Positions 23,139 to 40,429 of a stretch of DNA of 64,000 nucleotides are shown here, in pieces (positions within the stretch are counted from its first letter, which is position 1; the number at the start of each line of letters is the position of its first letter). The stretch covers positions 682,001-746,000 of the forward strand of contig NZ_CP084752.1 in the NCBI RefSeq assembly GCF_020535545.1, read 5' to 3'. Source of the stretch: Roseateles sp. XES5. Lineage in GTDB: Bacteria; Pseudomonadota; Alphaproteobacteria; Rhizobiales; Rhizobiaceae. Both the position numbers and the translations under genes were made by a program. The notes under the pieces were generated by a model. The model searched no databases. It was not told the origin of the DNA and was given only the letters and a program-made list of their open reading frames with translations.

Positions 23139-23885
23139 ATGGACGAAGACCGCCTCTATCACGATCCGGCGCTCGCCGATTTCTACGACCTCGAGAACGG
23201 CTGGGACCGCTCGCCGGACTTTGCCTTCTGCAAGGCGCTGGCGGCGGGGACGGCAAGCGTGCTGGACCTTGGCTGCGGTACGGGCGCGCTTGCCGTCGCG
23301 CTTTCCGGCGGCCGGCAGGTCGTCGGCGTCGATCCCGCCCCCGCCATGCTGGAGATTGCCCGGGCGAAACCCGGCGCCGAGGCCGTGGACTTCATCGAGG
23401 GCGATGCGCGCACGCTGCGGCTTTGCCGCCGCTTCGAACTCGTCGTGCTGACCGGCCACGCCTTCCAGGTGTTCCTGACCGAAGACGACCGCCGCGCGGT
23501 GCTTACCACCATCGCCGCGCATCTTGCCCCCGGCGGCCGTTTCATCTTCGACAGCCGCAACCCGGACTGCCGGGAATGGGAGGAATGGGGACCGAAGGAA
23601 TCGCTGCGCGTCGTGGACCATCCCCGCTTCGGCGCGGTCGCGGCCTGGAACGATGTGGCCGAGGACCCGGCGACCGGCATCGTCACCTACGAGACCCACT
23701 ACGAAATCCGCGCCACGGGCCAGCGGCTCTCCGCCGCCTCCCGCATCGCCTTTGCGCCGAAGGCCGAACTGGAGGCGCTGATCGCCGAGGCCGGGCTGAA
23801 AGTGGAGCGCTGGCTCGGCGACTGGGAGGGCAACGACTGGAAGCCGGGCGCGGGAGAACTCATTCCCCTCGGCACCCTCGCCTGA
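23139..23885 (+). CDS. Class I SAM-dependent methyltransferase
   Basis: A 248-residue cytoplasmic methyltransferase. Motif I is VLDLGCGTGALAVAL (about 44-58), motif II is VVGVDPAPAMLEIAR, and GGRFIFDSRNPD follows near residue 135. It resembles small-molecule methyltransferases of the Methyltransf_25 type. ATG at 23139 follows GGAGGAGA. The substrate is not indicated by its neighbours. Confidence 0.88.
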   Translation: MDEDRLYHDPALADFYDLENGWDRSPDFAFCKALAAGTASVLDLGCGTGALAVALSGGRQVVGVDPAPAMLEIARAKPGAEAVDFIEGDARTLRLCRRFELVVLTGHAFQVFLTEDDRRAVLTTIAAHLAPGGRFIFDSRNPDCREWEEWGPKESLRVVDHPRFGAVAAWNDVAEDPATGIVTYETHYEIRATGQRLSAASRIAFAPKAELEALIAEAGLKVERWLGDWEGNDWKPGAGELIPLGTLA

Positions 23886-24732: not shown

Positions 24733-24920
24733 GCTCGTCTCCCGTCTGGTCTTTGCTTTCAAATAGAACCGGGCCTTGTGATAGCACCGGCCCTGCAGAA
24801 AAATCTCGCACAATCGTCGCGCCCTACCCCTCCGGCCGAAACCGGAAGGGCGATGGCAGAAAAAGCATGTCCAGCCGAAGCAGTATCGCTCCGGCTTTGG
24901 ATCCTGCGGAAACCGGGCAG

Positions 24921-25629
24921 CTAGAGCGAGGGTGCGAAGGCGAGATTGACCGGCGCGACCCGATCGACCGGCGCGCCATTCGTCGCCTCGACCTCCCCGC
25001 CGACCGGCGCAAGCGTGACGTCGCGCACCCAGAGGCTGCCGGCGCCGCGCAGGTAGAAGCCGAAGCTGATGATCTCTGCGCTGTCGGGGATATCCAGCAC
25101 GACGCGACGTTCGCACCAGTCCGTCGTGCCGCTCAGGACACCATCGGCCGTCCGGCGCTCCATGTTGTCGAAGCGCAGCGTGTCGTTCTGCCGGCCATCG
25201 ACCCGCATCCACAGCGTGCCGCCACCGGCATCGCGCGTCCTCAGCCTTGCCGAGAGTTGCAGGCGCTGCCCGCGATAGGCCGTCGCCATCATGCTCTGCA
25301 TCAAGGTGCCGAAACCATTGCCGATGCCGGCGAAGGCCGGATCGTCCGGCTCGTATTTGCACCGGATGAGAACCGCACCATGCGGCTCGCTCTGGTCGAT
25401 GCCCATGTCATAGGCCTCGCTGCGCGAGCCGGAGGGCTGCCACCCGGCGGGAAGGTCAAGGGTCCTCTCCCGCGCCTCGATCTCAGCCGACAGCCGCATT
25501 CCAGTCGGCAAAGCCGAACTGGCGGGCGACAAGTTCGAGGCAGAGGCTGTGGGAGACGTCGATCGTCTGTTCGCCAAGGGCCTTGCGGAGGGCCTTGGCC
25601 ATGATTTTTGCATCGCGATAGGTGCGCAT
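24921..25629 (-). pseudogene. Glyoxalase-related protein, apparent frameshift
   Basis: The minus strand from ATG 25629 encodes MRTYRDAKIMAKALRKALGE, then a CLELVARQFGFADWNAA segment typical of the N-terminal domain of 'glyoxalase superfamily' proteins. It then hits a stop. One frame over, the sequence continues without a break: SAEIEARERTLDLPAGW, then a beta-sandwich-like domain (FGTLMQSMMATAYRGQRLQL, LWMRVDGRQNDTLRFDNM, GTTDWCERRVVLDIP) to TAG at 24921. The span is 709 nt, i.e. one base too many, with the shift near 25488-25500. It is either a real lesion or a sequencing error. The C-terminal domain alone might still be translated. Confidence 0.65.
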
Positions 25630-25948
25630 AGTCCGATCCTGAAACGGGGCAAACGTTTATCAGAGCTCGCATTGCTGACAGGTTCACCCGCAGGGGTCAG
25701 ACCATGGTTTTGGAAGGTGCATTCACCATGCCTTGCGGCGCGAGCGGCAGGCTGCACTGGCCCTGCGCGCAAGCTAGCGAGGGCGGCGCGATTCTGTCAA
25801 TCGGCAAGGATGGGCGAAAGCCGGGACCGGGATTGCGGCCCGACGGCCCTGCCCCAGTCCGGCGACATCTTATGAGACGCACGCGAAACCGTTTCCGCGC
25901 GCGGCTCCTAACCGGCAAGCGCCCGAGGGCGCGCCGACCGATGCGGCC
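25630..25948. other. Intergenic stretch without a supported gene
   Basis: About 320 bp. A + strand frame through it has no ribosome-binding site and runs antisense into the VOC gene; it was not accepted. A short GCGCCC/GGGCGC hairpin at about 25919-25932 may end VOC transcription. Confidence 0.4.
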
Positions 25949-26335
25949 TCAGCCGCGCCGGGCCGCCTCGATGGCGGCGATGTCGATCTTCTTCATGCCC
26001 ATCATCGCCTCGAAGGCGCGCTTTGCCTCGCCGCCGCCGCCGGCCATCGCCTCGGTCAGCGCGCGCGGCGTGATCTGCCAGGAGATGCCCCATTTGTCCT
26101 TGCACCAGCCGCAGACGCTTTCCTGGCCGCCATTGCCGACGATGGCGTTCCAGTAGCGGTCCGTCTCTTCCTGATCGTCCGTGGCGATCTGGAACGAGAA
26201 GGCCTCGCTGTGCTTGAACGTCGTGCCGCCGTTAAGGCCGATGCAGGCAACGCCCGCGACGGTGAATTCTACCGTCAGCACGTCGCCTTCCTTACCGGAG
26301 GGGAAGTCATCGGGCGCGCGGTGAACCGCGCCCAC
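25949..26335 (-). pseudogene. VOC/PhnB-like protein, 5' end removed by island junction
   Basis: Encodes most of a PhnB-like VOC protein (VHRAPDDFPSGKEGDVLTVE, LNGGTTFKHSEAFSFQI, ESVCGWCKDKWGISWQITPR, and a C-terminal MMGMKKIDIAAIEAA). Full-length relatives begin about 25-28 residues earlier with a first beta strand and helix, which are absent. Recognisable sequence (NSAVGAVHRAP) can be followed back to about 26345, exactly where base composition drops. GTG at 26335 is the first possible start, but the shortened product lacks part of the fold and is probably non-functional. Confidence 0.7.
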
Positions 26336-26345
26336 GGCGCTGTTG

Positions 26346-26744
26346 CGATGACGCGGTTGAAAACATCGAGCGATGTTGCCGCGAGAATGCTATTGATTTG
26401 AACAGCCGTACGCTCCTTTCGTCAGACCAAGAAGAGATGCTGTGGAAGGCTGCGGTTGTGGAGTCCGACCTTCCCTTAAAATCATGAATACCTTGATGTG
26501 TCCGGGGTCGAGCCGATCTGAAGTTGATTTCCGCCCACGAATAAATCGGGGAAGATGATTCGCGCAAAGGCACCGTTATGCAACTCCAATCGAGATTGTG
26601 AATGCACTTGACAACCCATGTGTCTAATGGCCAATGGGCGGTATTCTCAAGGCACGTGATCAGCAGCGAATATAGTAATCGCTGAATGTTAAAGCAAACA
26701 CGATCTTTGTTTTAAGGTGCCGCAGCGCAGGGATATCCGTCCTC
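26346..26744. other. Left flank of the low-GC island, no supported gene
   Basis: About 400 bp of AT-richer sequence between the VOC junction and the first glycosyltransferase. A TTGACA (26608-26613) is a possible -35 element, but a good -10 at normal spacing was not found. The minus-strand frame 26307-26573 crosses the junction and has no recognisable product. No transposase was identified. Confidence 0.45.
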
Positions 26745-29186
26745 ATGATAAAGAAAATTGGTAATAAAACGGAAACCGTGCTGGTTTCCATATTAATTTT
26801 CAGCGGCACCGAGAATATTGAAAGACTACTTTCAAATTTCCCGGAAAAAATTGATCGCATTTGTCATGAGATAGATCTCTCCGCTACAGTTGTAATTCGA
26901 AGCAATAATCCGTCTTTGGATTTAAATCCCATCAAAGAAACACTGGCGCGCTTCAGTAATTACTCCGATCGAATCTCGTTCGAGATTTTCGATGAGGGTT
27001 ATAACTCCGGCTTTGGTTGCGGTCACAATTCGAATTTTCGCAGATATCCGCACGACTACATATTAGTACTGAATGACGACCTAGACTTTGAAGATCTGGA
27101 CTGGATGAAGGTTGCGATCCGCCGCTTGCGAGATGAGTCTCGCTTAGCGATGATCGGAGATGTCTCAAACCCTAACGCCGTCAATCCGTTCTTTGGCAAC
27201 GGAACATTTCCCTCACGCGACCTATACTTCAGCATGAAATACGCAGAAGCGTCAATTCTGTTGATACGGGGAAAAACATTTGAAGAAATTGGGATGTTCG
27301 ATGAGACCATCAAGTGGGCCATGGGTGAGGATTCCGATCTCTCCTTCAAGGCCCAACAAGCTGGATATTATGTCGATTGGATGCCAATCCCACACGAGCA
27401 TTTTCGCTCGACATCGTTCAATTCTCTCCCTTCTTTTGAAAAATCGTCGATCCTAGAACACAACCGCGCCCGACTTTTTGCAAAATGGGGAAATTCCTTC
27501 GATAGCGGCCGGATAGGCAAGTTCGAGGTTTTTGACGTTTACAGCGATGGATTGGGCGACATGTTCTGTGCCCTCCTCCATATTAGAGCTGAATACGATC
27601 GCCTTAATAGAGCGTCTCACGATCACATTGTAGTCAATGTCGCCAACGAATCGCTGGCTCGCCTTGTACTACCGGAGCATGCTCGCCTTACGTCCTACCG
27701 GGATATCAATGCACTGCGCTCGCAACTATCTAATGACATCGCCAGCATTAGATCCATCCGTGCGTTAAACTATGCCCTTCCCTATAATATTCACTCACTC
27801 CTAGCCGGCTCATTGAGCGCCCCGTTTGCTGATGAAGCTACACTGATCGATGTCCGCAGTCGCCTTAGAGTGGCCACATCGGACCGCTTGGTTGAGGGAG
27901 ATTACTGCCTTCTACACTTGGAATTTGAGAGGGAAGGTCACCACGGTCGCGGCCCTTCGAGAGAATTGATCGAGAAGATCATCGCGGCGATTCCCGACAT
28001 GAATTGTAAAATCGTTCTTGTGGGAAAGAACCAAACTGTCCGGGCTGAATATTTTTCTCATTGCCCAAATCCGGTCGTGGATCTTCAGGGCAAACTGTCG
28101 CTTTCCGAATTGGTATCAGCCATCTCGAATGCTCGCTTCTTCATCGGAATCGACTCATTTCCTTTCCATGTTGCACAAGTCTCGGGAGTTCCAAGCGTAG
28201 TCTTCTTCGGATCGGTCAGCCCACTCCTTCGGGTTCTTTATCCTGAATTAGTCTGGCCGCTTCTAGCAGATATTGACTGCCTTGGATGCTATCATGATCA
28301 ACTTGAGCCCGGCATTCCTTTCTGCATGAAGATGACAGATCGCTGTACTTACGATATTTCCAGCGCGTCAATACTCAACTCCATTTCCGGCATGCTGAAC
28401 GACAAGCCATACAACTGGTCTCCCGTTCGAACGAGGCTGGATCGCAAGCTGGCGCATTTCGTGGAGTACCAGAAGTTCCATCCCTCGGCAGGACGTCGCC
28501 TTTACGAAACCATCATTCCCAACCAGCAGGTCAGTGAACTCATTTATGAGCTAACCGATCGCATATCTCGTCTTCACACCAATTATTCGCAAGGCGCTTT
28601 CCTGGAACAGTTGCAGGAAGATAATGCACGCATGCGGTCACAGCTTGTAGAAGGCGTCGCGAAGCTGAACGCATACGAGGAGGTCCAGCCGATCCATTCA
28701 CGCGATCCATCGAAGGTGCGGTCCGTGCCGTCGGCAGCGCTCATTTCAGGTCGGACGCGGTGTTCCGCAAACGAAGAAGGCGACGAAATCGTCTTTGCGA
28801 GTAGCCAGCACGATCCTCAGATTGAATTCGCGCCGGTCATTCTAAACGGTCCGACATTTGGCGTCACCATCACCGCTAGGGCTCAATCGAGGATATCGTT
28901 CAAGCTCTACTGGCGATCCGAGGGGGAGAATTTCGACGAAGGCCGCTGCTTTGCATTTATTGCCGATGAGCACCCCATTTCGCGCACCTGGTGGCACAGC
29001 GGCAAGATCGGCAAGCGTATTTACCTCCGTGTCGACCCTTGTGAGGGAACCGGCAACGTGAGCTTTAAGTTAAATTTTCTAGGTGACCTCGACGTGGAGA
29101 CGATGCGCGCCATGCTTGTCGTTGGGACTGAGCCGAATATCTGGAATCGCCTTTGGGGGATTACGCGTAAACTCTTCCGACGGTAG
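26745..29186 (+). CDS. GT2-GT9 fusion glycosyltransferase (813 aa)
   Basis: Residues about 10-250 form a GT2 (GT-A) domain with the metal site Asn-Asp-Asp (110-112) and the acceptor-side motif GEDSDL (194-199). Residues about 260-555 form a GT9 (GT-B, heptosyltransferase-like) domain with VYSDGLGDMF (about 265-274), GIDSFPFHVAQVSGVPSVVF (468-487), and the four-cysteine cluster C-x2-C-x11-C-x6-C (512-534) found near the end of many GT9 proteins. A linker with a short coiled coil and a C-terminal beta-rich domain (about 680-800) follow. It is cytoplasmic with no signal peptide. As first gene of the island operon, it probably adds two sugars, one plausibly heptose. Confidence 0.8.
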   Translation: MIKKIGNKTETVLVSILIFSGTENIERLLSNFPEKIDRICHEIDLSATVVIRSNNPSLDLNPIKETLARFSNYSDRISFEIFDEGYNSGFGCGHNSNFRRYPHDYILVLNDDLDFEDLDWMKVAIRRLRDESRLAMIGDVSNPNAVNPFFGNGTFPSRDLYFSMKYAEASILLIRGKTFEEIGMFDETIKWAMGEDSDLSFKAQQAGYYVDWMPIPHEHFRSTSFNSLPSFEKSSILEHNRARLFAKWGNSFDSGRIGKFEVFDVYSDGLGDMFCALLHIRAEYDRLNRASHDHIVVNVANESLARLVLPEHARLTSYRDINALRSQLSNDIASIRSIRALNYALPYNIHSLLAGSLSAPFADEATLIDVRSRLRVATSDRLVEGDYCLLHLEFEREGHHGRGPSRELIEKIIAAIPDMNCKIVLVGKNQTVRAEYFSHCPNPVVDLQGKLSLSELVSAISNARFFIGIDSFPFHVAQVSGVPSVVFFGSVSPLLRVLYPELVWPLLADIDCLGCYHDQLEPGIPFCMKMTDRCTYDISSASILNSISGMLNDKPYNWSPVRTRLDRKLAHFVEYQKFHPSAGRRLYETIIPNQQVSELIYELTDRISRLHTNYSQGAFLEQLQEDNARMRSQLVEGVAKLNAYEEVQPIHSRDPSKVRSVPSAALISGRTRCSANEEGDEIVFASSQHDPQIEFAPVILNGPTFGVTITARAQSRISFKLYWRSEGENFDEGRCFAFIADEHPISRTWWHSGKIGKRIYLRVDPCEGTGNVSFKLNFLGDLDVETMRAMLVVGTEPNIWNRLWGITRKLFRR

Positions 29187-29321
29187 CCATCCTCTGCAAC
29201 CCGGCTGGAAACGTCCGACACATATCTTGTTTAGCCCTTTGACGCCGTGTAGAGAATTCATCGCGAGCATAGCGCAGCTCAGGTTGATTTGAAGAAGAAG
29301 AACTTGGAAAGTGTGATTTGA

Positions 29322-30791
29322 ATGGACGTGTTGACCATCGATAGTTGGAAAGACAAAACGGTCTTCGTTCTCGGAGACGTAATGTTGGACCGGTTCATCT
29401 ACGGAAACGTCGAACGCATCTCTCCTGAAGCACCCATCCCGGTACTGCATTACCGGAAAGAAGCCCAGATGCCGGGAGGCGCAGCCAACGTAGCTCGAAA
29501 CATCGTGGCGCTAGGGGGGCGGGCCATCTTGGCAGGCATCGTTGGCACCGACGAAGCTGGTCGCGTCCTCGACAACGAATTGAACGAAAAGCAGGGTATA
29601 GAAGCCTATCTAATCAAAACCCAGCGCATCCCTACAATTGTTAAGACAAGGTTCGTTTCGGGCGGGCAGCAGATTATGCGCCTCGACGTGGAAATGCGTC
29701 TTCAGATGGATGTGGAGCTAGAAAACGAGATTTACGCGGCGTTCAAGGCTGTTTCGGAGAGGATAGACGCAGTAATTCTTTCAGACTATGCGAAAGGGTT
29801 ACTTTCGGCGGCACTTGTAAAGCGAGTGATCGAATTTGCCCGTGAATGCGGTTTGCCCGTTGTTGTCGATCCCAAGACCGCCAATATCGATCATTTTTGC
29901 GGAGCCACAGTGATCACACCGAACGCGCTCGAAGCGGCGATGATCACCGGGATTAGGTGTATTTCGAACAAAGCCGCCCACCATGCGGCGCGCGACATTG
30001 CTACGCGTATTTCGGTCAGCGGCGTCATTGTGACTCGCGGCGCAGATGGGATGACGCTGTACGCGCCGGAAATGGGCGTAGCTGAAGCGCTTCATATTCC
30101 GGCAAATGCGTCGGAAGTATTCGACGTTTCGGGTGCCGGAGATACAGTGGTAGCAACTATTGCCCTGGCGCTTGTAGCTAATTGCGGCATAGCCGAAGCC
30201 GCAAAAATTGCAAATGTCGCGGCGGGCATTTCTATAGGCAAGCATGGAACCTCGGTAGTCTATCCGCATGAACTTCGTGGATCCGTCAGTGCTAGCAGCC
30301 ACGCGAGTGACGGCAAAATCGTCGGCCATGTCGATGCGGCTGAAATCATAGGTGACTGGAAGCGGGCAGGACTCCGCGTCGGCTTTACCAATGGCTGCTA
30401 CGACCTACTTCACCCGGGCCATATCAGCCTGCTCAGGAAGGCTAGAGCGGCCTGCGACAGGCTTGTTGTAGCGCTTAACACTGATGCTTCCGTGCGCAGG
30501 TTGAAGGGCGAGACGCGCCCTGTCCAGAACGAGATGGCCCGGGCGACAGTGATGGCCTCAGTCAACTCCGTCGATCTAGTGACGCTGTTCGACGAGGATA
30601 CACCGTTGTCACTGATCCAGAAACTGAGACCCGATGTCCTCGTCAAGGGGGCCGACTACACGGTCGCGACAGTTGTCGGTTCCGACTACGTTATCAATAA
30701 TGGCGGCGAAGTCGTGCTAATCCCATTGGAAGAAGGGCACAGCACAACTTCGATCATTGCCCGCTCGAAGACCGGCGCATCAGAGCGATAG
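29322..30791 (+). CDS. hldE: Bifunctional heptose-7-P kinase / heptose-1-P adenylyltransferase HldE
   Basis: A 489-residue two-domain enzyme. The N-terminal PfkB-type kinase (about 1-325) has GGAANVARNIVALGG (about 46-60) and the catalytic SGAGDTVVA (about 268-276). The C-terminal nucleotidyltransferase (about 350-489) has FTNGCYDLLHPGHISLL with the HxGH motif and KGADY. It phosphorylates D-glycero-D-manno-heptose-7-P and, after GmhB, adds AMP to form ADP-D,D-heptose. ATG at 29322 is well placed, and its length matches E. coli HldE (477). It is unusual in rhizobia, whose characterised LPS cores generally lack heptose. Confidence 0.93.
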   Translation: MDVLTIDSWKDKTVFVLGDVMLDRFIYGNVERISPEAPIPVLHYRKEAQMPGGAANVARNIVALGGRAILAGIVGTDEAGRVLDNELNEKQGIEAYLIKTQRIPTIVKTRFVSGGQQIMRLDVEMRLQMDVELENEIYAAFKAVSERIDAVILSDYAKGLLSAALVKRVIEFARECGLPVVVDPKTANIDHFCGATVITPNALEAAMITGIRCISNKAAHHAARDIATRISVSGVIVTRGADGMTLYAPEMGVAEALHIPANASEVFDVSGAGDTVVATIALALVANCGIAEAAKIANVAAGISIGKHGTSVVYPHELRGSVSASSHASDGKIVGHVDAAEIIGDWKRAGLRVGFTNGCYDLLHPGHISLLRKARAACDRLVVALNTDASVRRLKGETRPVQNEMARATVMASVNSVDLVTLFDEDTPLSLIQKLRPDVLVKGADYTVATVVGSDYVINNGGEVVLIPLEEGHSTTSIIARSKTGASER

Positions 30792-30845
30792 ACAGGTCGG
30801 CAAATTGCCGGAACATCTGCGCAGACAGCCAATGGAGTCAAAAGT

Positions 30846-31835
30846 ATGTATGTCGTGACCGGTGGGGCAGGGTTTATCGGGTCGAATATTGCCGCCGCCC
30901 TCGATAACCGCGAAGAGGACGTCGTGATCGTCGATTGGTTGGGCAACAGCGATCACAAATGGCGGAATGTCGCCAAGCGAAGGTTGCGTGCAATCATACC
31001 GCCAGAGGATTGTTTCGGGTTCCTCCAGACGCATGCAAAGGCGATATCAGGAATCTACCATATGGGCGCGATCTCGGCCACGACTGAGACGGACGTCGAT
31101 CTAATTGTCAGAAGCAACATCACCCTTTCCTCTAGTCTGTGGGATTTTGCGGTTGAGAACCAGATCGGTTTTGTCTACGCTTCATCTGCGGCTACTTATG
31201 GGGACGGTACTAACGGCTTCCATGACCGGTTCGACAACGAATATCTTGCCGGTTTGCGACCAATGAATGCCTACGGTTGGAGCAAGCACCTGTTTGATCG
31301 GATGGTCCTCAAGAAAATCGAGCGTGGTGAAGCAACACCGCCCGTATGGGCAGGCCTGAAATTCTTTAATGTCTACGGCCCCAATGAATATCACAAAGGC
31401 GCGCAGCGCAGTGTGGCAGCGCAACTTTATAATCAGATTCGTAGCGAAGGGCATGTGCGGTTGTTCCGTTCGGACAATCCCGACTACCCTGATGGTGGCC
31501 AATTGCGAGATTTCGTATGGGTAGGCGACTGCGTTGATGTTGCGCTCTGGCTGATGGCAAGTAGCAAACACAATTCCGGCCTGTACAATGTAGGTTCAGG
31601 AAAAGCTCGAAGCTTCCGAGATAAGGCGGAAATTGTGTTCCGAGAACTCGGCATTGCGCCGGATATCCGCTATGTCGATCTCCCTGAAAACCTTAAGGGA
31701 AAATACCAATACTACACCTGCGCCTCTATGAAGAGGTTGCACGATGCAGGCTACAGTAAGCCGATTACATCCTTGGAAAATGGACTCCGAAGCTATGTTC
31801 TCGATTATCTCGATAACACTGACCCATTCGTTTGA
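30846..31835 (+). CDS. hldD: ADP-L-glycero-D-manno-heptose 6-epimerase HldD
   Basis: A 329-residue extended SDR that converts ADP-D,D-heptose to ADP-L,D-heptose. The N-terminal VTGGAGFIGSNIAAAL binds NADP. The HldD-specific segment HMGAISATTETD is near residue 72, the catalytic YGWSKHLFDR near residue 142, and LKFFNVYGPNEYHKG near residue 175. The middle residues ASSAATYGDG match the family. It starts 54 bp after hldE in the same operon. Confidence 0.93.
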   Translation: MYVVTGGAGFIGSNIAAALDNREEDVVIVDWLGNSDHKWRNVAKRRLRAIIPPEDCFGFLQTHAKAISGIYHMGAISATTETDVDLIVRSNITLSSSLWDFAVENQIGFVYASSAATYGDGTNGFHDRFDNEYLAGLRPMNAYGWSKHLFDRMVLKKIERGEATPPVWAGLKFFNVYGPNEYHKGAQRSVAAQLYNQIRSEGHVRLFRSDNPDYPDGGQLRDFVWVGDCVDVALWLMASSKHNSGLYNVGSGKARSFRDKAEIVFRELGIAPDIRYVDLPENLKGKYQYYTCASMKRLHDAGYSKPITSLENGLRSYVLDYLDNTDPFV

Positions 31836-31900
31836 GGAAATTAGTACGACGTGAAATACCGCGATGATGCACTTGGAGCGCTATCGAAAGTATTATTTGC

Positions 31901-33064
31901 ATGACTAGTGAAGATCGCTTGTTGCTGCGGCATGAAGCCGAGCGAGCTTCATCCTGGCTATCGGATGAGGCTCTTCCGTTGTGGTCGAATGTTGGTTTTG
32001 ATCATGCAACTGGAAGCTTCCACGAACAAATAGATCTATCGCTGTCTCCCATCACGAATATACCATCCCGCGTAATGGTACAGGCGCGACAAATCTCAGT
32101 ATTTTCCGCTGCCACACTCACGGGGCGCTTCAACGGGGCAGAGATTGCACTTATAGCCGTCCAGAACATGATCGCACGTTACGAGAGTGCCGATGGAAGA
32201 CCGGGTTGGGTATTTTCGATTGATAGGGAGGCGGGAGCACTCAATTCGGTTCGCGATCTCTATGCGCATGCATTTGTGCTTTTTGCCTTGGCATGGGCTA
32301 TTCGCTTGGAACAAAGACAAGCTTTTTTTGATGCCGCGGACAGGACGCTGCAGTTCCTCGATGCTCAGCTAAGCGATCCAACGGCGGGCGGTTTTTGGGA
32401 CAGCCTGCCGCGGTTGGACAATCTCCGCCGTCAAAATCCACATATGCACCTCTTCGAAGCGTTCATCGCGCTTTACGAGGCAACCGGTGATCCGAAATTT
32501 CTGGAGCGCGGTCGAAAACTCCGCAACCTCGCCGTCGAACGGTTCTTGTCAGCCAATGACGGCGCGCTGCGAGAGTTTTTCTTCGACGATTGGACTGTTT
32601 CGCCAGCAAATGGCCAGGGTAGTGTCGAGCCCGGGCATCTGTTCGAGTGGTCTTGGCTTCTTCACCAATATCAGTCGGCCAGCGGCGAAGAGCAATCCGA
32701 GTCAATAGCAGCCATGATGCGGCTGGCCCGCCAAAGCGGTCTTGACGAGGCAACAGGGAGGATCGTTGATGAGATCGCCGAGGACGGATCAATAATAGCC
32801 TACACAAGCCGGTCCTGGCCGCATGCCGAGGCGCTTAAGGCACTAACTACGATCGCTTCCGATCATGGAGGTGGCGGCGATCTCGCCGTCGCCATGATCC
32901 TCCGACGACTGATGACTCGCTACTGTCCTCCTTCCCTGAAAGGTGGTTGGCACGACCAAATGGACGCAGATGACAACCCGATCCGTCCAAATATTCCAGC
33001 AAGCACGCTCTATCATCTTTATTTCGGAATAACGGCGGTGGAAGAGTTCCTGAGAACACCATGA
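31901..33064 (+). CDS. AGE-family sugar isomerase/epimerase
   Basis: A 387-residue (alpha/alpha)6-barrel protein of the N-acylglucosamine 2-epimerase / mannose isomerase superfamily. Family landmarks are RVMVQARQISVFS (about 55-67), NPHMHLFEAFIAL with an active-site His (about 180), GHLFEWSWLL (about 245) and STLYHLYFGI at the end. Relatives interconvert glucose, mannose or fructose (and their phosphates) or GlcNAc/ManNAc. In this operon the heptose pathway lacks GmhA, so a role in supplying the ketose/aldose precursor is possible but unproven; a mannose-6-P isomerase role is the alternative. Its stop overlaps the gmhB ATG. Confidence 0.8.
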   Translation: MTSEDRLLLRHEAERASSWLSDEALPLWSNVGFDHATGSFHEQIDLSLSPITNIPSRVMVQARQISVFSAATLTGRFNGAEIALIAVQNMIARYESADGRPGWVFSIDREAGALNSVRDLYAHAFVLFALAWAIRLEQRQAFFDAADRTLQFLDAQLSDPTAGGFWDSLPRLDNLRRQNPHMHLFEAFIALYEATGDPKFLERGRKLRNLAVERFLSANDGALREFFFDDWTVSPANGQGSVEPGHLFEWSWLLHQYQSASGEEQSESIAAMMRLARQSGLDEATGRIVDEIAEDGSIIAYTSRSWPHAEALKALTTIASDHGGGGDLAVAMILRRLMTRYCPPSLKGGWHDQMDADDNPIRPNIPASTLYHLYFGITAVEEFLRTP

Positions 33065-33651
33065 ACGCCGGCCATGTAAGGTCCAAGCTCAGAGATATCG
33101 GAATTTCCCCCATGACAAAAACTATATTTCTGGATCGCGACGGTACGATCATCATCGACAAAGGATATTTGCACGATCCGCTCCAAGTCGAACTGGAGGT
33201 TGGTGCAGCTCATGGTCTGATGCTCATGCAACAGGCAGGGTATCGACTTGTTGGAGTGACTAACCAGTCAGGCGTCGGACGCGGATATTTTTCCCTGGCG
33301 GAAGCCGAAGCTTGCAATCGTCGCGTCGACGAACTGCTGCTAGAGTACGGCGTTGAGATTAGCGCTTGGTTTATCTGCCCACACGCACCCGATGAGGCTT
33401 GCGATTGTCGTAAGCCGCTTCCAGGCCTCGTAAGGCAGGCGAGCGAAAAATTCTCGATCGACTACACGTCCTCCTTCGTTATCGGCGACAAGGATTCCGA
33501 TGTCCTTCTTGCAGAGTCCAGCGGAATGCAAGGCCTGCTTGTTCTGACCGGATCAGGACACAGTCATGCTGACTGGGCGCGGGCGACCAAAACCCGTTCT
33601 TTCGACGGCTTGGAGGACGCAGCGAAGTACATTATTGCGCCAGTTAGATGA
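33061..33651 (+). CDS. gmhB: D,D-heptose 1,7-bisphosphate phosphatase GmhB
   Basis: A 196-residue HAD-family histidinol-phosphatase/GmhB type enzyme. The nucleophile motif is FLDRDGTI, followed by GVTNQSGVGRG (motif II), the zinc loop CPH...CDCRKP, and the acidic motif GDKDSD. It removes the C7 phosphate between the two HldE steps. ATG at 33061 overlaps the upstream stop (ATGA), giving coupled translation; an internal ATG at 33112 (MTKTIFLDRD) is closer to the usual N-terminus. Confidence 0.9.
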   Translation: MNAGHVRSKLRDIGISPMTKTIFLDRDGTIIIDKGYLHDPLQVELEVGAAHGLMLMQQAGYRLVGVTNQSGVGRGYFSLAEAEACNRRVDELLLEYGVEISAWFICPHAPDEACDCRKPLPGLVRQASEKFSIDYTSSFVIGDKDSDVLLAESSGMQGLLVLTGSGHSHADWARATKTRSFDGLEDAAKYIIAPVR

Positions 33652-33734
33652 ACAAGCACGCTGCGGAGAACCAGAATCGGTAAACTTCAGGCGTCATCGT
33701 TGACTTTCGATTAGAAGCTGCCAATAAGCCTCAT

Positions 33735-36700
33735 ATGCAGCGTCAAAAACTTCTCAATATTTATCCGAATGGCCGGCTCTCGAATTACGTTGCTCGGGAT
33801 GAGTTCGACCCGTCAAAGCGTGAGACAATTCAAATGCTCGTGAGTGTTGTTATTTCAACGTACAATCGCTGCAAGTCGCTGAAGAATACCTTGGCGGCTC
33901 TCGAACTCCAGACGTATCGCGATTTTGAGGTAATTATCGTTAACGGCCCGTCGAACGATGGCACGGCTGAAGTCGTTGAAGATCGCTGGCCATCGGCCAA
34001 ATTACTGCATATCACGGAAAGGAACCTGTCAAAATCGAGAAACGTCGGCATAGCGGCCGCGTCAGGTGAAATTATAGCGTTTATCGACGATGATGGTGTC
34101 GCATCACCTACCTGGCTCGAAGAGATCGTGGGGGCCTATGATGATCCTCTGGTCGGCGGCGTGGGCGGACTTGTCGTTGATGCAAATGGCGTAAAGTTGC
34201 AGTATCGGTATTCTCTGTGCGATCGCCTATGTGTCGGGGAATTTATATTCGGCGAACTTGCCCCTGATCGCCTTGCGGCGGCGCTGAAGCCGGGAGCGGA
34301 TCCATTTCTCTATTTGCAAGGGACGAATTGTTCCTTTCGGCGCGATGCCCTAGCAAAAATAGGCGGATTCAACGAGCAAATTGAATACTACGGCGACGAA
34401 TCCGACGTATGTATGCGATTGATAGATAGCGGCTATCGGCTGGTGCCGCTTGATGCCGCCAGCGTCATGCATAAATACGCTGCTAGCCATTCGCGAAATG
34501 CCGCCGGCTTCGTCTTCGACCCTTATACGACCATCAAGAATCACCATCTCTTTGCGCTAACAAACGGCAAGGCGACGCGACGCCCTGAGCAAATCTACCG
34601 TAATCTTGAATACTATATCCAGCTTTGCCGTGATGGTGCACGGTGGCACTTTGCCCGCTCGAACATCACGCGAGAGCAGCTTGACTTCTTCAACGCCCGC
34701 CTCGAAGCAGGAGTCAGAGCGGGCATCCTAGCTGCTCGTAGCCCGCGCCTCAGTTGCGATTTCCCTCCCGTGATCGCCGCTGAGTTTCAGCCTTTCGCTA
34801 CGCGAAAGGCCTTGCAAGACGACCGTCCGAATGTGGTTCTACTTAGTCCCCGGCACCATGATAAGCTGCTTTCGGACCGCATTCTGGTATATGCTGAAAA
34901 GTTATCACAGCAGGGGGTCGTTGTGCATCTGGTCATTCGTGGCCAAGATCAGGACATGGTCGATTTCGACGATCGCGGCTATTACGTCCATCGAATCTGT
35001 TTCGATGAATTTGCCGAACTAGAGAGGCGATATTCCAGCTACCTGGCCGATAAGTTCGATGTGATGGCAAGTCGTCACCTGACACGCCTGAACGCGCCTT
35101 TCGACATCCGCCTGGTTGTCGTCTTCGAAGAACCAGGCTTCCCAAACGTGCTCGCAAGCATATACGATTGCCCAATCGTTAATGCCAATCCAGCCGGAAC
35201 GCCGGTTGAGTTTTTCGATACGGATGTCGTTGTCAGACATTCCGCCGTTCTAGAACGAAGAGGCTCCACAGACGGTAGAGAAGCCTCAGAGCAGGCAACC
35301 GTCCGATCACCGCGTGAGCAGATCGATATAGCCGTGATGGACGCGGTCAGTTCGTCTCAGTATTCGGACGATCTACATGCTCTCAACGGTTTTCTGGACG
35401 AGGCCGAGCCCGAAGCTGCGCGCCTCAAGGCCGTCCGCAAGATTATGCTTGAAACGGATGCCGATTTCGTTCGCGGCGCCTTCGAGATTCTATACGACCG
35501 GATACCGGGAGCCACGGAATTCGATCATACGCCAACTCAGATGCTGCTGCGTTACGGCGGGAGAATCGAATTTTTGCGTCATCTGGTTGACTCGCCAGAA
35601 TTCGAATTAAAACAGAACTACCAAGAGATTCGCCGCCAATTTGCATCCTTCGCGATCCGCATTAAGAGAGTGCCGGATCCAACTATCCAGCTTGGGGAAA
35701 AACTGGCTGCCGAGATATACACTAAACTCGGGAAACACCTTAAAGCCGACGACGCTCTCGAATTCATGACTGCATGCTATCAGCTCATTTTGGAACGCAA
35801 CCCGGATGAGCATGCATTGTCGGTCGGTCCGAAATATCTAATCGGCACGGCTGGCGGCAGACTCGGCTACATAAGACGGATGGTGTGGTCCGAGGAATTT
35901 AACGGCCGCCCGAACAGCCTCTTCCTTCGCCGCGCACTTGCCAATTTTGAAGCACATGAGTCTGGTTTCATTGACGAAGTGTTGCAAGATGAGTTGATTC
36001 AATGCCAAGCTTTGCTTGAGAAGCTTATGAAATCGGCAGTCAAGGACAACGATCGAGCCTTCGTCACATTGCTCTACGAGGCAGTACTACATCGTTCACC
36101 CGATGACGCTGCAAAGGCTAGCTTTCACAAATTTATCGACGATGCCGGCGGGCGGGAGCGGCTTATCGAGCGATTGCTGAGCTCGCGAGAAGGTAAAGAC
36201 TTCCCGCGCAATCACCAAATTTTGGCTCTGCTTGATAGAGCGAGCAAGACAACGGCAGATGCAAGCCGCCTTCTCCTAAAGCGACAGACATTCTTCATGA
36301 AGGATGCCTTACGGAAAGGCACTATACGCCTCTCGCGAGGAGGAGGTCTCGGCGATGTACTGATGTGCACCCCCGTTTTACGTGAAATCAAGAACCGTTA
36401 TCCGAACCTACGCTTGGAATTCTATACAAAGTTCGGTGCACTTGTGCAGGGGTTGCCGTTTATTGACCATGTCGCTGACGTTTCTGAGGAGCCTGAGGAT
36501 GTTATTCCTATGCTCTATGAAAAGGATGTTCCAACGAACAGGCATCTCGCAAGCATCTTCGCAGAACGTTGTGGTTTCCAGATCGATGACCTAACACCTC
36601 TTTGCTGGTTAGACCCTAAGGTCTTGGCGAAAACTTCGGAGAAGATATCCCATTTGCCACGGCCGGTGGTCGTTATCCAGCGGCAGGCAAGTGACTGGAC

Positions 36701-37163
36701 ACCCAACAAGAAATGGCCGATACGATACTGGGAAGAGTTGCTGTCTTGCCTGACCGAGATAGCCTTTGTCATCGAAGTCGGGGTAGGTGCGGCGGGCTGC
36801 GAAGCTCATCACAACTATCTTGACATGCGGGGCAAGACATCGTTGCAGGAGATGGCGGCGCTTATCAAACTGGCCGATGCTTTTGTCGGACCCGACTCCG
36901 GCCCGGCGCATATCGCAGCTGCTGTCGAGACGAAGGCCGTGGTGATCTCGGGTGGATATATCCATCCAAATTGCATCAGCTACAAAACGACGAGGTTGCT
37001 GAGTTCGGAGGTTCCATGCTTATCCTGCTGGCTGCAAACGCCCTGCCCGAATAATCTCATGTGTTTGGGAATGATTACCCCAGATGTTGTCATCGACAAT
37101 GTCCGAGACATCCTTGCTACGCGCCCGCTCGTCGCGGGACTTGAGAAGCATGCGCGCGCCTAA
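33735..37163 (+). CDS. GT2-(DUF4214-like)x3-GT9 giant glycosyltransferase (1142 aa)
   Basis: Residues about 35-290 form a GT2 domain (VSVVISTYNRC; DDD at 118-120; GDESDVCMR near 220). Residues about 340-520 look like a Rossmann half-domain of a GT-B enzyme. Three repeats about 98 residues apart (near 575, 672 and 771) match the DUF4214 pattern, e.g. FVRGAFEILYDRIPG ... FLRHLVDSPEF. Residues about 862-1130 form a GT9 domain (SRGGGLGDVLMCTPVLREIK, VGPDSGPAHIAAA, and a C-x2-C-x5-C-x5-C cluster). It is predicted to be cytoplasmic. The start is 33735 or, closer to GT2 convention, ATG 33834. Two catalytic centres joined by repeats suggest processive or scaffolded assembly. Confidence 0.78.
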   Translation: MQRQKLLNIYPNGRLSNYVARDEFDPSKRETIQMLVSVVISTYNRCKSLKNTLAALELQTYRDFEVIIVNGPSNDGTAEVVEDRWPSAKLLHITERNLSKSRNVGIAAASGEIIAFIDDDGVASPTWLEEIVGAYDDPLVGGVGGLVVDANGVKLQYRYSLCDRLCVGEFIFGELAPDRLAAALKPGADPFLYLQGTNCSFRRDALAKIGGFNEQIEYYGDESDVCMRLIDSGYRLVPLDAASVMHKYAASHSRNAAGFVFDPYTTIKNHHLFALTNGKATRRPEQIYRNLEYYIQLCRDGARWHFARSNITREQLDFFNARLEAGVRAGILAARSPRLSCDFPPVIAAEFQPFATRKALQDDRPNVVLLSPRHHDKLLSDRILVYAEKLSQQGVVVHLVIRGQDQDMVDFDDRGYYVHRICFDEFAELERRYSSYLADKFDVMASRHLTRLNAPFDIRLVVVFEEPGFPNVLASIYDCPIVNANPAGTPVEFFDTDVVVRHSAVLERRGSTDGREASEQATVRSPREQIDIAVMDAVSSSQYSDDLHALNGFLDEAEPEAARLKAVRKIMLETDADFVRGAFEILYDRIPGATEFDHTPTQMLLRYGGRIEFLRHLVDSPEFELKQNYQEIRRQFASFAIRIKRVPDPTIQLGEKLAAEIYTKLGKHLKADDALEFMTACYQLILERNPDEHALSVGPKYLIGTAGGRLGYIRRMVWSEEFNGRPNSLFLRRALANFEAHESGFIDEVLQDELIQCQALLEKLMKSAVKDNDRAFVTLLYEAVLHRSPDDAAKASFHKFIDDAGGRERLIERLLSSREGKDFPRNHQILALLDRASKTTADASRLLLKRQTFFMKDALRKGTIRLSRGGGLGDVLMCTPVLREIKNRYPNLRLEFYTKFGALVQGLPFIDHVADVSEEPEDVIPMLYEKDVPTNRHLASIFAERCGFQIDDLTPLCWLDPKVLAKTSEKISHLPRPVVVIQRQASDWTPNKKWPIRYWEELLSCLTEIAFVIEVGVGAAGCEAHHNYLDMRGKTSLQEMAALIKLADAFVGPDSGPAHIAAAVETKAVVISGGYIHPNCISYKTTRLLSSEVPCLSCWLQTPCPNNLMCLGMITPDVVIDNVRDILATRPLVAGLEKHARA

Positions 37164-37217
37164 GAGTCCGCTTCATAGATAGGGCCCGTCCTTTGCAGAT
37201 TGACAGGAGAGTTTGGA

Positions 37218-37418
37218 TTGTTGACACAGAACGAGAAAACCGAAGCCTTTATGGCGGATATGCTATCGTCTATTGAGGCCATCAAGGACAAACTGGCGCT
37301 TATACATTACAAGCAGATCGAAATAGAAGCGCTGTTGCTTGAGAAGCAGGATATAGCGGATCGCATTGCAGACATGAATTCCAAAGGGAGAGATGTTCAT
37401 GGCAAGCCCGTACGATAA
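37218..37418 (+). CDS. 66-residue helical protein
   Basis: A short, mostly alpha-helical protein (LTQNEKTEAFMADMLSSIEA at the start; EIEALLLEKQDIADRIADM near the end) with a heptad-like pattern suggesting a coiled coil. TTG at 37218 has AGGAGAG 8 bp upstream; an earlier TTG at 37200 lacks one. Its 3' end overlaps the GSCFA gene by 26 bp, so it belongs to the operon. Function is unknown; an adaptor for the neighbouring glycan enzymes is one guess. Confidence 0.6.
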   Translation: MLTQNEKTEAFMADMLSSIEAIKDKLALIHYKQIEIEALLLEKQDIADRIADMNSKGRDVHGKPVR

Positions 37419-38463
37419 ACTTCCCAGCATCGCATTCTGGCGCAAATCCGTTTCCTCCATTCCAGCCTTTGCTTTTGATCCGGTTTCGAACCCCACCTTT
37501 AAAATTCTCCCGGAGGACGTCATCGCGACAGCGGGAAGCTGCTTTGCCCAACATCTTTCCAAGGCATTGAATCGTGAAGGATATAATTACCTGATCGCTG
37601 ACGAGGGGCAGGACAAGGAAGTGCCCGACGACAGCTACGGAGTCTTTTCCGCGCGATACGGGAATGTTTATACCGTGCGGCAGCTTTTGCAGCTTTTTCA
37701 GCGCGCGTTCGGCAGTCGAAATTTCGACCTTCCTGTCTGGAAAAACCGCAACGATCAGGTGGTCGATCCATTTCGCCCACAGGTGCAGTTCGGGGGGTTC
37801 GCTTCGCAAGAAGATATGCTTGCCGACCGCGAAAGGCATCTTTCTGCCGTACGCGGAATATTTCGCGACATGAACGTGCTGATTTTTACCCTTGGCCTGA
37901 CGGAAGGATGGATCCATCGCCAATCCGGCGCGGTGCTGCCAATAGCTCCAGGGGTTTCTGGAGGCGATTGGAATCCAGAAGAATATGAATTTGTAAACTT
38001 CTCCGTCGCGCAAGTCTCAGCCGACCTTACTGACGTATTGTCCAGTATTCGCAATATTAACCCCTCGTGCCGCGTCATCCTAACGGTTTCTCCAGTCCCC
38101 CTGATTGCAACCTATTCGGGTAGTCACGTTGCCCCGGCGACGACGCTGAGCAAGTCTGTGCTACGGGTCGCAGCCGAAGAAGTGTCCGCGGCTATGCCTG
38201 GCGTCGACTACTTTCCTTCCTACGAAATCATCACATCAGCTGCCGCAGGTGGTCGGTATTTTGAGGACGACTTGCGAAACATCCGTGCCGAAGGCGTTGC
38301 TCATGTTATGCGGGTGTTCTTTCATCACTATGTCCGACAGAACGAGGACGGGCCTGTTCCAGTAGCTTCTGAAAGCTCCGAGATCTTGGTCGACCGCGCT
38401 GCGCGGATGATGAAGGTCGTCTGCGATGAGGAAGCTATTGAGGAGCAGCTCGCGCACATTTGA
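37393..38463 (+). CDS. GSCFA domain protein
   Basis: A 356-residue protein of the GSCFA family (PF08885). The name motif appears as TAGSCFAQHLSKAL (about 47-60), with ARYGNVYTVRQLLQLF and FTLGLTEGW following. GSCFA proteins are GDSL/SGNH-like and are suspected acyl esterases or acyltransferases of glycans; the activity is not established. It starts at ATG 37393 after GGGAGAG. It stands before a WcbI-like gene, and the pair is likely to modify the glycan built by the upstream transferases. Confidence 0.85.
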   Translation: MFMASPYDKLPSIAFWRKSVSSIPAFAFDPVSNPTFKILPEDVIATAGSCFAQHLSKALNREGYNYLIADEGQDKEVPDDSYGVFSARYGNVYTVRQLLQLFQRAFGSRNFDLPVWKNRNDQVVDPFRPQVQFGGFASQEDMLADRERHLSAVRGIFRDMNVLIFTLGLTEGWIHRQSGAVLPIAPGVSGGDWNPEEYEFVNFSVAQVSADLTDVLSSIRNINPSCRVILTVSPVPLIATYSGSHVAPATTLSKSVLRVAAEEVSAAMPGVDYFPSYEIITSAAAGGRYFEDDLRNIRAEGVAHVMRVFFHHYVRQNEDGPVPVASESSEILVDRAARMMKVVCDEEAIEEQLAHI

Positions 38464-38483
38464 GCTGAATAGAGGCGGACACA

Positions 38484-39377
38484 ATGCGTATTGGTATAAT
38501 CGGAAACTGCCAGGTAGAGACGATAGCGCCTGTACTGAGGCTTCTTACCAGGAGTCTTGATATAGAAAGCCACCACAGCTGGAACATAAAATCGAACTTC
38601 AACAATCAAGAATCCTTGGAAGAATATATCAATGGCTTTGATATTTTCCTATGCCAAGATTTCTATGGTATAGATGGGTTCGATTCTTCTGCAATATGGG
38701 AAAATACAAAGGCAATCCGGTTTCCGACCTTCTATTTCGATGCCTTTCACCCTGATTGTGTGTATTTGTATAACCACGAAAAACAAACGGTGGTTCGCAC
38801 AGATATGTCGCATTATAATTCGGGCTTGATTGCGTATCTCTATGTGAACGGTCTTACCGAGTCTGAAACCGTCAACGCTTTTCGTGCGAATATCTTTTCC
38901 GCCGCAGGCTTCCTTAATCGATGGCATCCAGCCTACACAGTGCTGGAACAGGAGTTCAAGGCGTGCAACCTGAGACTTGCCGACTTTATGCCTCGGTGGA
39001 TGCGGCAAGGCCCTTTCATGCATAGCTGCAATCACCCCACTTTGAACGCGATCTACGATGTCTGTCTTTTTGTGCTACAACAAGCTGGAGCAACCACCAC
39101 GAATGTGGAAAGACCAGGCAACTTCCTCCAAGATCCTTTGCTGCGTTATCCAGTGTGGCCTATTTATCCGGAGATTTCATCGCGGTACGGTTTCTCGGGA
39201 ACGTATTGCTTCAAGGGTGAAAACTTAGATGGAACTTTGAAAAACTTGTTCGACCTACCACAGTTTGTCGAAAGAAGTTTCCATTACTACGCGGAAAATG
39301 AACTGACCAAAATTGATGATCCGATGTTTGTCAAATGGGACAACGACGGGCTAATCGCCACAATACGCGCTACGTGA
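38484..39377 (+). CDS. WcbI-like polysaccharide biosynthesis protein
   Basis: A 297-residue protein that opens with RIGIIGNCQVETIAPVLRLL, the GNCQ signature of WcbI-type proteins, and has HYNSGLIAYLY and MHSCNHPTLNAIYDVCLF, which resemble the rest of that fold. In Burkholderia, WcbI belongs to the heptose capsule locus, binds coenzyme A and is required for acetylation of the capsule. Its presence behind heptose genes therefore fits O-acylation of a heptose glycan. It is the last gene of the operon, starting at ATG 38484, 20 bp after GSCFA. Confidence 0.72.
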   Translation: MRIGIIGNCQVETIAPVLRLLTRSLDIESHHSWNIKSNFNNQESLEEYINGFDIFLCQDFYGIDGFDSSAIWENTKAIRFPTFYFDAFHPDCVYLYNHEKQTVVRTDMSHYNSGLIAYLYVNGLTESETVNAFRANIFSAAGFLNRWHPAYTVLEQEFKACNLRLADFMPRWMRQGPFMHSCNHPTLNAIYDVCLFVLQQAGATTTNVERPGNFLQDPLLRYPVWPIYPEISSRYGFSGTYCFKGENLDGTLKNLFDLPQFVERSFHYYAENELTKIDDPMFVKWDNDGLIATIRAT

Positions 39378-39842
39378 CGAGGCGGCGGCTATATAAGGCC
39401 GAAGGGAGTAAAGGGCGGAGTTAGCACGACCCGTTGTGGTCGAATTGCTTACCGTTAGAGCACGTCCCCGTTTAATCTGCTCCACATGTTGACTGAAGCG
39501 ATAGGGGGCTCGGCAGGGGTAAAGAGTTATAGAACGGAACTGACGGCATTTCAGAGAGCAGATAAAGGTTCGTTCGCCCCTTGCCCGCATCAGCGCCTTG
39601 AGCTTTCAGAATGCGTTTTCGACTAGGTGTAAACTTGGGATTGTAGGCTGACAGGTTCGCCCTCGCCGCTTCAATGGCGTTGCACGCAACTACGACCTTA
39701 TCGGCGGCAGGCCACCCTACCAATTTACCCCGCGCTATCAGCACATCAACCTGACGAAGGTTAGTCTTCTGCTTTACGTCGTTTCGCTGCCCACTTTTCA
39801 GCGCAGACCAAGCGCTGACTACACAACAGCAGGAGTACACTT
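39378..39842. other. Right flank of the island, no supported gene
   Basis: About 465 bp of intermediate GC. A minus-strand frame (39870-39472) contains a plausible stretch (TNLRQVDVLIARGKLVGWPA, then NAIEAARANLSAYNPKF) but has no convincing start and its beginning lies over the next gene's ribosome-binding site. It may be a decayed gene. No transposase, integrase or terminal repeat was recognised. Confidence 0.4.
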
Positions 39843-40073
39843 GTGAGCGAACCGTCCGTAGCAGAGGCAACCAGCCGTATTTATGAATCGCTCCAGGCGG
39901 ACAATGCCGACATCGATATGCATATCGCGGCGCTCAAGGCGGCGATGAAGCAGGCGGGGTTGAAAGAGGCGGTGTTCGATCCGGCGCGGCTGGCACATAA
40001 CAATCGTTCCGGCAGGAAGCTCATGCAGGCTTATTTCCGCCAGCGTGGGGTGACGGTGACGTTCTCGGCGTGA
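39843..40073 (+). CDS. Conserved hypothetical protein (76 aa)
   Basis: A 76-residue protein, mostly helical with a basic C-terminus (ARLAHNNRSGRKLMQAYFRQ). GTG at 39843 follows GGAG. GC content and codon use return to chromosomal levels here, so it marks the first gene to the right of the island. No domain is recognised; the small basic form could suit nucleic-acid binding, but this is a guess. Confidence 0.7.
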   Translation: MSEPSVAEATSRIYESLQADNADIDMHIAALKAAMKQAGLKEAVFDPARLAHNNRSGRKLMQAYFRQRGVTVTFSA

Positions 40074-40175
40074 AACCTTCCCGGCCCTGGAACCAGGGCC
40101 GCGATGCCGCCCACGGATTCCGGATGAACGCGAAAGCGCTGGAAAGCCGCGATTCTTCTTTGAAAATGGGAACGC

Positions 40176-40250
40176 TGGCTGGGGCGCCAGGATTCGAACC
40201 TGGGAATGCCGGTACCAAAAACCGGTGCCTTACCGCTTGGCGACGCCCCA
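40176..40250 (-). tRNA. tRNA-Gln (anticodon TTG)
   Basis: Minus strand: acceptor TGGGGCG (40250-40244) pairs with CGCCCCA (40186-40180), discriminator G, and CCA is encoded (40178-40176). The anticodon stem CCGGT/ACCGG encloses loop TTTTGGT, giving anticodon TTG for Gln codon CAA. The T-loop GTTCGAATC is present. Its 3' end faces the island, but no duplicate of that end was found at the left junction. Confidence 0.95.
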
Positions 40251-40429
40251 ACACGGCGGGAGCCTGATAGCAAAGCGGGAGGGCGTGGACAATGCTTAAG
40301 TTCCGCTTTGCCGCGATTATTCTCCGCCGGGGTCGCCGTTTTCCGGCCGGGCGGGCGGGCTTCGTGCTTGGCAGGCGCGGCGGGCGGGGCTAGGGTCCGG
40401 CCCAACCTGCCTTTTTTCAAGGAGCCGCC

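Follow-up and report, generated by a model that had tools for sequence, protein, structure and literature searches.

In the described route to ADP-heptose, which feeds both lipopolysaccharide (LPS) and protein heptosylation, the enzymes GmhA, HldE, GmhB and HldD make up the pathway; GmhA makes heptose 7-phosphate from sedoheptulose 7-phosphate, and HldE then acts on heptose 7-phosphate. Here we analyze a stretch of 64,000 nucleotides from Roseateles sp. XES5, which GTDB places in the Rhizobiaceae (contig NZ_CP084752.1, positions 682,001 to 746,000; this whole stretch is called the window, and coordinates count from its first letter). A low-GC (guanine plus cytosine) island in it resembles the canonical pathway in encoding HldE and HldD, both above curated cut-offs, a GmhB-like phosphatase that stays below its own cut-offs and GT9-containing glycosyltransferases as users of the product, but differs from it in that no GmhA was found in the island or the genome, and a protein of the AGE (N-acylglucosamine 2-epimerase) family is present instead. 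We predict that this AGE protein is a sedoheptulose-7-phosphate isomerase which replaces GmhA non-orthologously in the island, and we regard this as probable because no gmhA was found, AGE occupies its position and other genomes show the exchange as well. The AGE enzyme would thus take the GmhA step, from sedoheptulose 7-phosphate to heptose 7-phosphate; HldE, GmhB and HldD would then lead to ADP-heptose, two GT9-containing glycosyltransferases would put its sugar into a glycan, and a WcbI-family and a GSCFA-family protein together would O-acylate that glycan. GmhA is treated as the committed first enzyme and as an inhibitor target in the accessible part of PMC11056994, and a genome survey, in the portion available (PMC7725333), placed ADP-L,D-heptose only in Gammaproteobacteria.

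An NCBIfam search of the eight island proteins gave no gmhA. Over the whole genome TIGR00441 had no match at E up to 1e-8, while PF13580 (SIS_2) at E up to 0.1 had three, none of them gmhA; as these read as MurQ-, RpiR- and GlmS-like proteins, a hidden genomic gmhA was rejected. The genome holds a single AGE protein at E up to 1e-20, sited between hldD and gmhB in the order hldE-hldD-AGE-gmhB, with the end of the AGE gene overlapping the start of gmhB. In canonical relatives (L135, L144 and L152) gmhA lies between hldE and gmhB. The original prediction, made from the letters of the window, had called the pathway self-contained, which the missing gmhA contradicts; it overlooked this absence and its bearing on the AGE gene.

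We scanned named genomes with an alignment of 11 AGE sequences and took the best 80 of 588 loci. At these, hldE was found within 2.5 kb of AGE in 25 (Kaistia, Gluconobacter, Acetobacter, Komagataeibacter, Methylocella, Sphingomonas and others), a gmhB domain only in six (two of them Bradyrhizobium), ManC in nine and none of these in 40, and no gmhA was present in the surrounding 4-21 kb at any of the 80. Genome-wide, no full gmhA was found in 35 of the 36 genomes tested behind AGE loci, including 24 of the 25 hldE-linked ones; partial matches of 28-32 bits occurred in four of the 35. AGE is also fused to heptose enzymes. On a plasmid of Rhizobium sp. CC-CFT758 a single open reading frame (ORF) of 890 amino acids, annotated rfaE2, encodes AGE followed by a complete HldE (Pfam) and has rfaD, GT9 and HAD hydrolase genes as neighbors, and an AGE-GmhB fusion of 561 amino acids lies beside hldD and hldE in R. 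rhizogenes OV677. Two GDP-heptose loci, L043 and L204 (Methylosinus plasmid), carry hddA, hddC-gmhB and AGE, with no gmhA in the stretches read.

The relation between the two enzymes was followed in two larger samples. In the order sample (297 genomes, 48 with hldE), AGE was directly linked in nine of the hldE genomes, none of which had a strong gmhA, as against 18 of the 39 unlinked ones (p 0.018); the 21 unlinked genomes without strong gmhA had AGE elsewhere in 13 cases and none in eight, and weaker TIGR00441 matches occurred in eight of the 21. In the class sample of 318 genomes, hldE was found in 166, a gmhA match in 145 and AGE in 38. Among its hldE genomes, gmhA (E up to 1e-30) was lacking in 26 of 32 with AGE and in 18 of 134 without it (Fisher p 2.5e-13, kinship not corrected for), and relaxing the gmhA threshold to E up to 1e-20 gave 22/32 against 16/134. 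Nine families contain both AGE states: five shift as predicted, none shifts the opposite way and four do not change, and family f108 counts as predicted only because its matches near 5e-26 miss the threshold. This class-wide pattern can be taken as support for the view that AGE enzymes, even unlinked ones, are able to carry the first step, but shared ancestry may inflate it.

The modeled AGE protein (predicted local distance difference test score, pLDDT, 96.6) adopts the AGE alpha/alpha barrel, and Foldseek gave template modeling (TM) scores, by query length, of 0.77-0.90 to the AGE structures listed. Like the known members of the superfamily (GlcNAc 2-epimerase, cellobiose 2-epimerase, mannose isomerase and YihS), it has this fold and the conserved His, Glu and Arg positions: all 52 sequences compared have R57, H183, H246 and E249, and 51 of them have H372, residues which we take to be catalytic. 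It differs from the solved relatives displayed in carrying R304 and a K/R at 313, both conserved in 52/52, and island-type AGEs further differ in that their genes lie beside, or are joined to, those for heptose enzymes or ManC. By eye, 3wkf, 8h1k, 5zig, 3gt5 and 5x32 have H, E, V, Y and Y at position 304, and V, I, A and A at 313, where the 5zig alignment stops short. A role of R304 and K/R313 in phosphate binding may be supposed.

In an AGE tree of 85 rows, left after removal of 25 near-copies or duplicates, 30 of 31 hldE-linked rows fell in one 41-row fork (Shimodaira-Hasegawa-like approximate likelihood ratio test, SH-aLRT, 88), which also held five of the nine gmhB/hdd-linked rows and the row of genome G230, while 12 of 14 ManC-linked or fused rows lay on the other side of the tree with Bradyrhizobium. 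In a second tree, of 43 chosen earlier rows, 33 class loci and two others, Acetobacter thailandicus, G382 and G513 formed a separate hldE-linked group, and the CC-CFT758 fusion stood apart with weak support. Since these stand separately, it is likely that AGE was recruited to heptose loci more than once.

Several observations weigh against AGE as the GmhA substitute. The strongest of these is G230, the AGE of which (47% identity, the closest found in the order sample) adjoins an intact-looking gmhA; this gmhA retains HxxxE and QxxH positions, which we take to be the zinc ligands of GmhA, and the surrounding genes form a GDP-heptose locus in which a GDP-mannose-4,6-dehydratase-like gene is present too. 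Gluconobacter wancherniae likewise has, besides its hldE-linked AGE, an intact-reading gmhA elsewhere in the genome. In the order sample AGE at any position was not predictive, strong gmhA being present in 11 of 33 genomes with AGE and 7 of 15 without, and in the class sample only four of the 26 genomes with AGE and without gmhA have AGE beside heptose genes (hldE in the window, G382 and G513; an hddC-gmhB fusion in G538) and three have it beside ManC, the others lacking every gene searched for within about 5 kb, apart from G419, where a sequence matching the hddC-gmhB query at 30% lies 4.6 kb from AGE. Sixteen hldE genomes of the class sample gave no gmhA at E 1e-20 and no AGE at E 1e-30; a third route or missed genes could account for them. 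An independent-pairs test on an HldE tree gave three pairs, too few to inform; this tree had 67 rows, with L078 (186 amino acids matched) and the hldE genomes G123, G140, G184, G207 and G257 left out and two organisms present twice (G244 = L126 and G278 = L059, identical there). ManC-linked AGEs carry basic residues at 304 and 313 too; this fits a common preference for phosphosugars and does not single out a heptose substrate.

Two other roles for the protein were considered. The AGE could be a 2-epimerase or another tailoring enzyme which alters the heptose, for example from manno to gluco, with an unrecognised isomerase elsewhere performing the first step. Most AGE relatives with a solved structure bear the name of 2-epimerases of free sugars, and at G230, where gmhA and AGE stand side by side, the dehydratase-like gene suggests a modified heptose; we nevertheless consider tailoring improbable, as it gives no reason for the missing gmhA in 24 of 25 hldE-linked genomes and would not lead one to expect AGE and gmhA to be complementary across the class. 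Alternatively, the AGE could be a phosphomannose isomerase for GDP-mannose, with a role in mannose rather than in the first heptose step. In other genomes AGE does lie beside ManC, including the three class genomes mentioned above, or is fused with it: a ManC domain is followed by the AGE domain within a single ORF at L021, L027, L029, L030 and L031, that is in five of six long AGE ORFs (the sixth, L024, has a long N-terminal part without a ManC match), and ManC-AGE fusions are annotated as such on plasmids. Such fusions point to phosphomannose isomerization, which would be the same chemistry on a sugar one carbon shorter. For the island itself this role seems very improbable, since no manC or manB domain was found there by Pfam or NCBIfam, the ManC-linked or fused AGEs lie mostly across the tree from the hldE-linked ones, and AGE is fused to HldE and to GmhB. 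Replacement of GmhA thus remains our preferred explanation of the AGE gene.

For the glycan, a TibC-like decoration of a cytoplasmic protein, rather than of LPS or capsule, is possible but on balance doubtful. Among solved structures both GT9 domains match TibC, a protein heptosyltransferase, best (E 1.6e-4 and 5.5e-4), and for the first domain TibC is the sole match at E 0.01; the CxxC of that domain aligns with the iron-finger Cys-339 and Cys-342 of TibC, as given in the accessible text of PMC4358343. In agreement with what the original prediction had stated, the eight proteins showed no domain of an exporter, flippase, polymerase or ligase (Pfam, E up to 0.001), which would suit a cytoplasmic acceptor; export genes may, however, come from elsewhere in the cell, the search for them having covered the island. 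The TibC matches are weak and do not decide between a protein and a lipid acceptor, further cysteines are spaced differently from those of TibC, and for the second GT9 domain LPS heptosyltransferase I scores nearly equal to TibC. The island glycosyltransferases share with the autotransporter heptosyltransferases (TibC, AAH) a GT9 domain with CxxC and differ from them in being larger and multidomain and in falling far below the family cut-off: TIGR04414, with its cut-off at 200 bits, scored 33.6 bits for the 1142-amino-acid protein and had no match in the 813-amino-acid one. Nor was an autotransporter gene seen adjoining, the autotransporter domain being absent from the eight island proteins and the eight flanking ORFs scanned. 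The equivalog families of LPS core heptosyltransferases also stayed below their cut-offs (21.7-47.8 bits against 134.6-467), and a plasmid search with the 1142-amino-acid protein returned partial matches only, in 15 records.

Some GmhA-like proteins met in the samples are recorded here separately. SIS proteins which resemble GmhA and lack HxxxE and QxxH occur in G143 (L142) and G253 (L143); these were the two read among the 86-90-bit TIGR00441 matches in Bradyrhizobium-like genomes, and such matches were rejected as GmhA for want of the presumed zinc-ligand positions. In the Bradyrhizobium-like family of the order sample, strong gmhA was found in one of nine hldE genomes (G035). In G207, G257, G184 and G140, HldE-like kinases of divergent sequence (E 1e-54 to 1e-61) occur together with GmhA-like proteins that are likewise divergent (102-106 bits), the two genes lying within about 3 kb of each other in G207 and G257, and such pairs possibly belong to another sugar pathway. 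Tblastn matches of over-long gmhA query ORFs (G015 and G261) in hldE stretches were read as antisense artefacts of the chosen ORF starts.

The acylation proposed for the glycan concerns the last two genes of the island. In the accessible part of PMC4104973, WcbI binds coenzyme A (CoA) but shows no activity by itself, and a further protein, not named there, is proposed as its partner. The searches returned six WcbI loci in all, and GSCFA is adjacent to WcbI in four of them and fused with it in one, in both orders; the pairing is found in the window (37393-39377), in G346, Alloyangia and G010 and in S. fredii SMH12 (loci including L206, L242 and L244), and no GSCFA was seen within 8 kb of WcbI in R. 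tropici CIAT 899. By its gene context GSCFA is a candidate for the WcbI partner, and O-acylation of the glycan by the two, which the original prediction had offered as a possibility, is plausible. The Burkholderia wcb locus for a 6-deoxy-heptose capsule has a WcbI-family protein too, but the island has ADP- rather than GDP-heptose genes and pairs WcbI with GSCFA; no GDP-heptose genes or wcb-type capsule export genes were found in it. G346, of the same genus as the window genome, has a different lower-GC island at another place, with hldD-gmhB-hldE-AGE, two tetratricopeptide repeat (TPR) glycosyltransferases of 1675 and 1815 amino acids and WcbI-GSCFA as a single ORF (L202:9143-11074); no gmhA was found in the 38 kb read around it. 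The two islands have the same functions and differ in gene order and place; their four pathway genes share 37-50% identity.

The features of the island are collected in Table 1. Eight plus-strand genes of at least 100 amino acids occupy 26346-39842, their coding part being 26745-39377; the original prediction had placed them correctly on one strand and counted nine. Pfam and NCBIfam bore out its naming of HldE, HldD, GmhB, AGE, GSCFA, WcbI and two GT9-containing proteins, with the reservation that for GmhB the best family name scored below the curated NCBIfam cut-offs; the GSCFA and WcbI proteins had no NCBIfam match. Its description of two GT2/GT9 fusions holds for GT9 in both proteins, the GT2 domain of the 813-amino-acid protein being weak and below its cut-off of 27 bits.

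Table 1. Features of the heptose island and its borders (window coordinates)
Feature	Position	Strand	Evidence
Insertion by synteny	24747..40176		Right end is the 3' end of tRNA-Gln; comparison with same-genus relatives
Low-GC part of island	26346..39842		GC 0.518
GT2-like/GT9 glycosyltransferase, 813 aa	26745..29186	+	PF01075 39.5 bits, PF13632 24.7 bits; TibC best PDB match of GT9 part, E 1.6e-4
hldE, heptose-7-phosphate kinase and heptose-1-phosphate adenylyltransferase, 489 aa	29322..30791	+	TIGR02198 357.4 bits, TIGR02199 194.4 bits, both above cut-off
hldD, ADP-heptose 6-epimerase, 329 aa	30846..31835	+	TIGR02197 365.7 bits, above cut-off
AGE-family isomerase, 387 aa, proposed sedoheptulose-7-phosphate isomerase	31901..33064	+	PF07221 208.8 bits; model pLDDT 96.6; neighborhood, fusions, phyletic pattern
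gmhB-like heptose-bisphosphate phosphatase, 196 aa	33061..33651	+	PRK08942 158.6 bits (cut-off 178), TIGR00213 124.1 bits (cut-off 149.6)
GT2-DUF4214-GT9 glycosyltransferase, 1142 aa	33735..37163	+	PF00535 101.9 bits, PF13946 39.4 bits, PF01075 72.4 bits
GSCFA-family protein, 356 aa, candidate WcbI partner	37393..38463	+	PF08885 184.2 bits
WcbI-family CoA-binding putative acetyltransferase, 297 aa	38484..39377	+	PF18588 96.7 bits
tRNA-Gln(ttg), right border	40176..40250	-	ARAGORN

The low GC on which the original prediction had remarked was confirmed: the block of about 13.5 kb stands against about 0.66 outside it (0.660 left of 24747, 0.666 right of 40251 and 0.656-0.666 in neighboring stretches), the exception among the flanks being the 284 bp adjoining tRNA-Gln, at 0.616. 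Synteny defines an insertion that extends beyond this block, from 24747 to about 40176. On the right, homology to same-genus genomes sets in at 40127-40176 for 16 of the 20 relatives, and for the other four it is shifted 190-240 bp rightward. In nine same-genus relatives a 17-kb stretch at the tRNA-Gln site was compared by blastn, and none of them showed the island. The distance between the counterparts of window positions 24747 and 40176 is about 95 bp in G333 and about 785 bp in G340; the gap is 52 bp in G350, counted from window position 23873, about 640 bp in G337, to window position 40367, and 4.7 kb in G349, while in the other four the left flank lies outside the stretch read. Among 21 genomes of the genus, hldE is confined to the window genome and G346. 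On the nine-relative synteny and this rarity of hldE, common ancestry of the island at the tRNA-Gln site within the genus was rejected, and the same genes at normal GC in this place were not seen in the close relatives compared. Acquisition of the locus by transfer and its reading as a heptose glycan island are both supported. At the left GC border, the gene at 25949-26335 matches a 3-demethylubiquinone methyltransferase-like family, and its start seems to have been cut off at the island border because the profile matches only from position 31. Between the island and tRNA-Gln, sequence related to window positions 39823-40081 occurs elsewhere in several same-genus genomes.

In the literature searched, which did not include subscription papers, we found no paper linking AGE or N-acylglucosamine 2-epimerase with heptose and none linking the AGE family with phosphomannose isomerase, and an earlier report may exist. 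The accessible portions of PMC10440746, PMC7725333, PMC9200736, PMC4104973 and PMC4358343 do not contain the proposal that AGE substitutes for GmhA. Taken together, the locus is an ordinary-looking transferred glycan island which brings to light a probable non-orthologous GmhA replacement. We lean toward the wider view that in many Alphaproteobacteria a second, structurally unrelated family, derived from phosphomannose-isomerase-like AGE enzymes and recruited more than once, performs the committed step of nucleotide-heptose synthesis, that gmhA would therefore be no universal marker of heptose or universal target, and that here the step would feed an acylated heptose glycan through multidomain glycosyltransferases, possibly on a protein. 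If this is true, pathway annotation which requires gmhA would fail in acetic acid bacteria, Kaistia, Methylocella and others, GmhA inhibitors would be without effect in those bacteria, and the AGE enzymes would represent a clean non-orthologous replacement of a metal-dependent enzyme.

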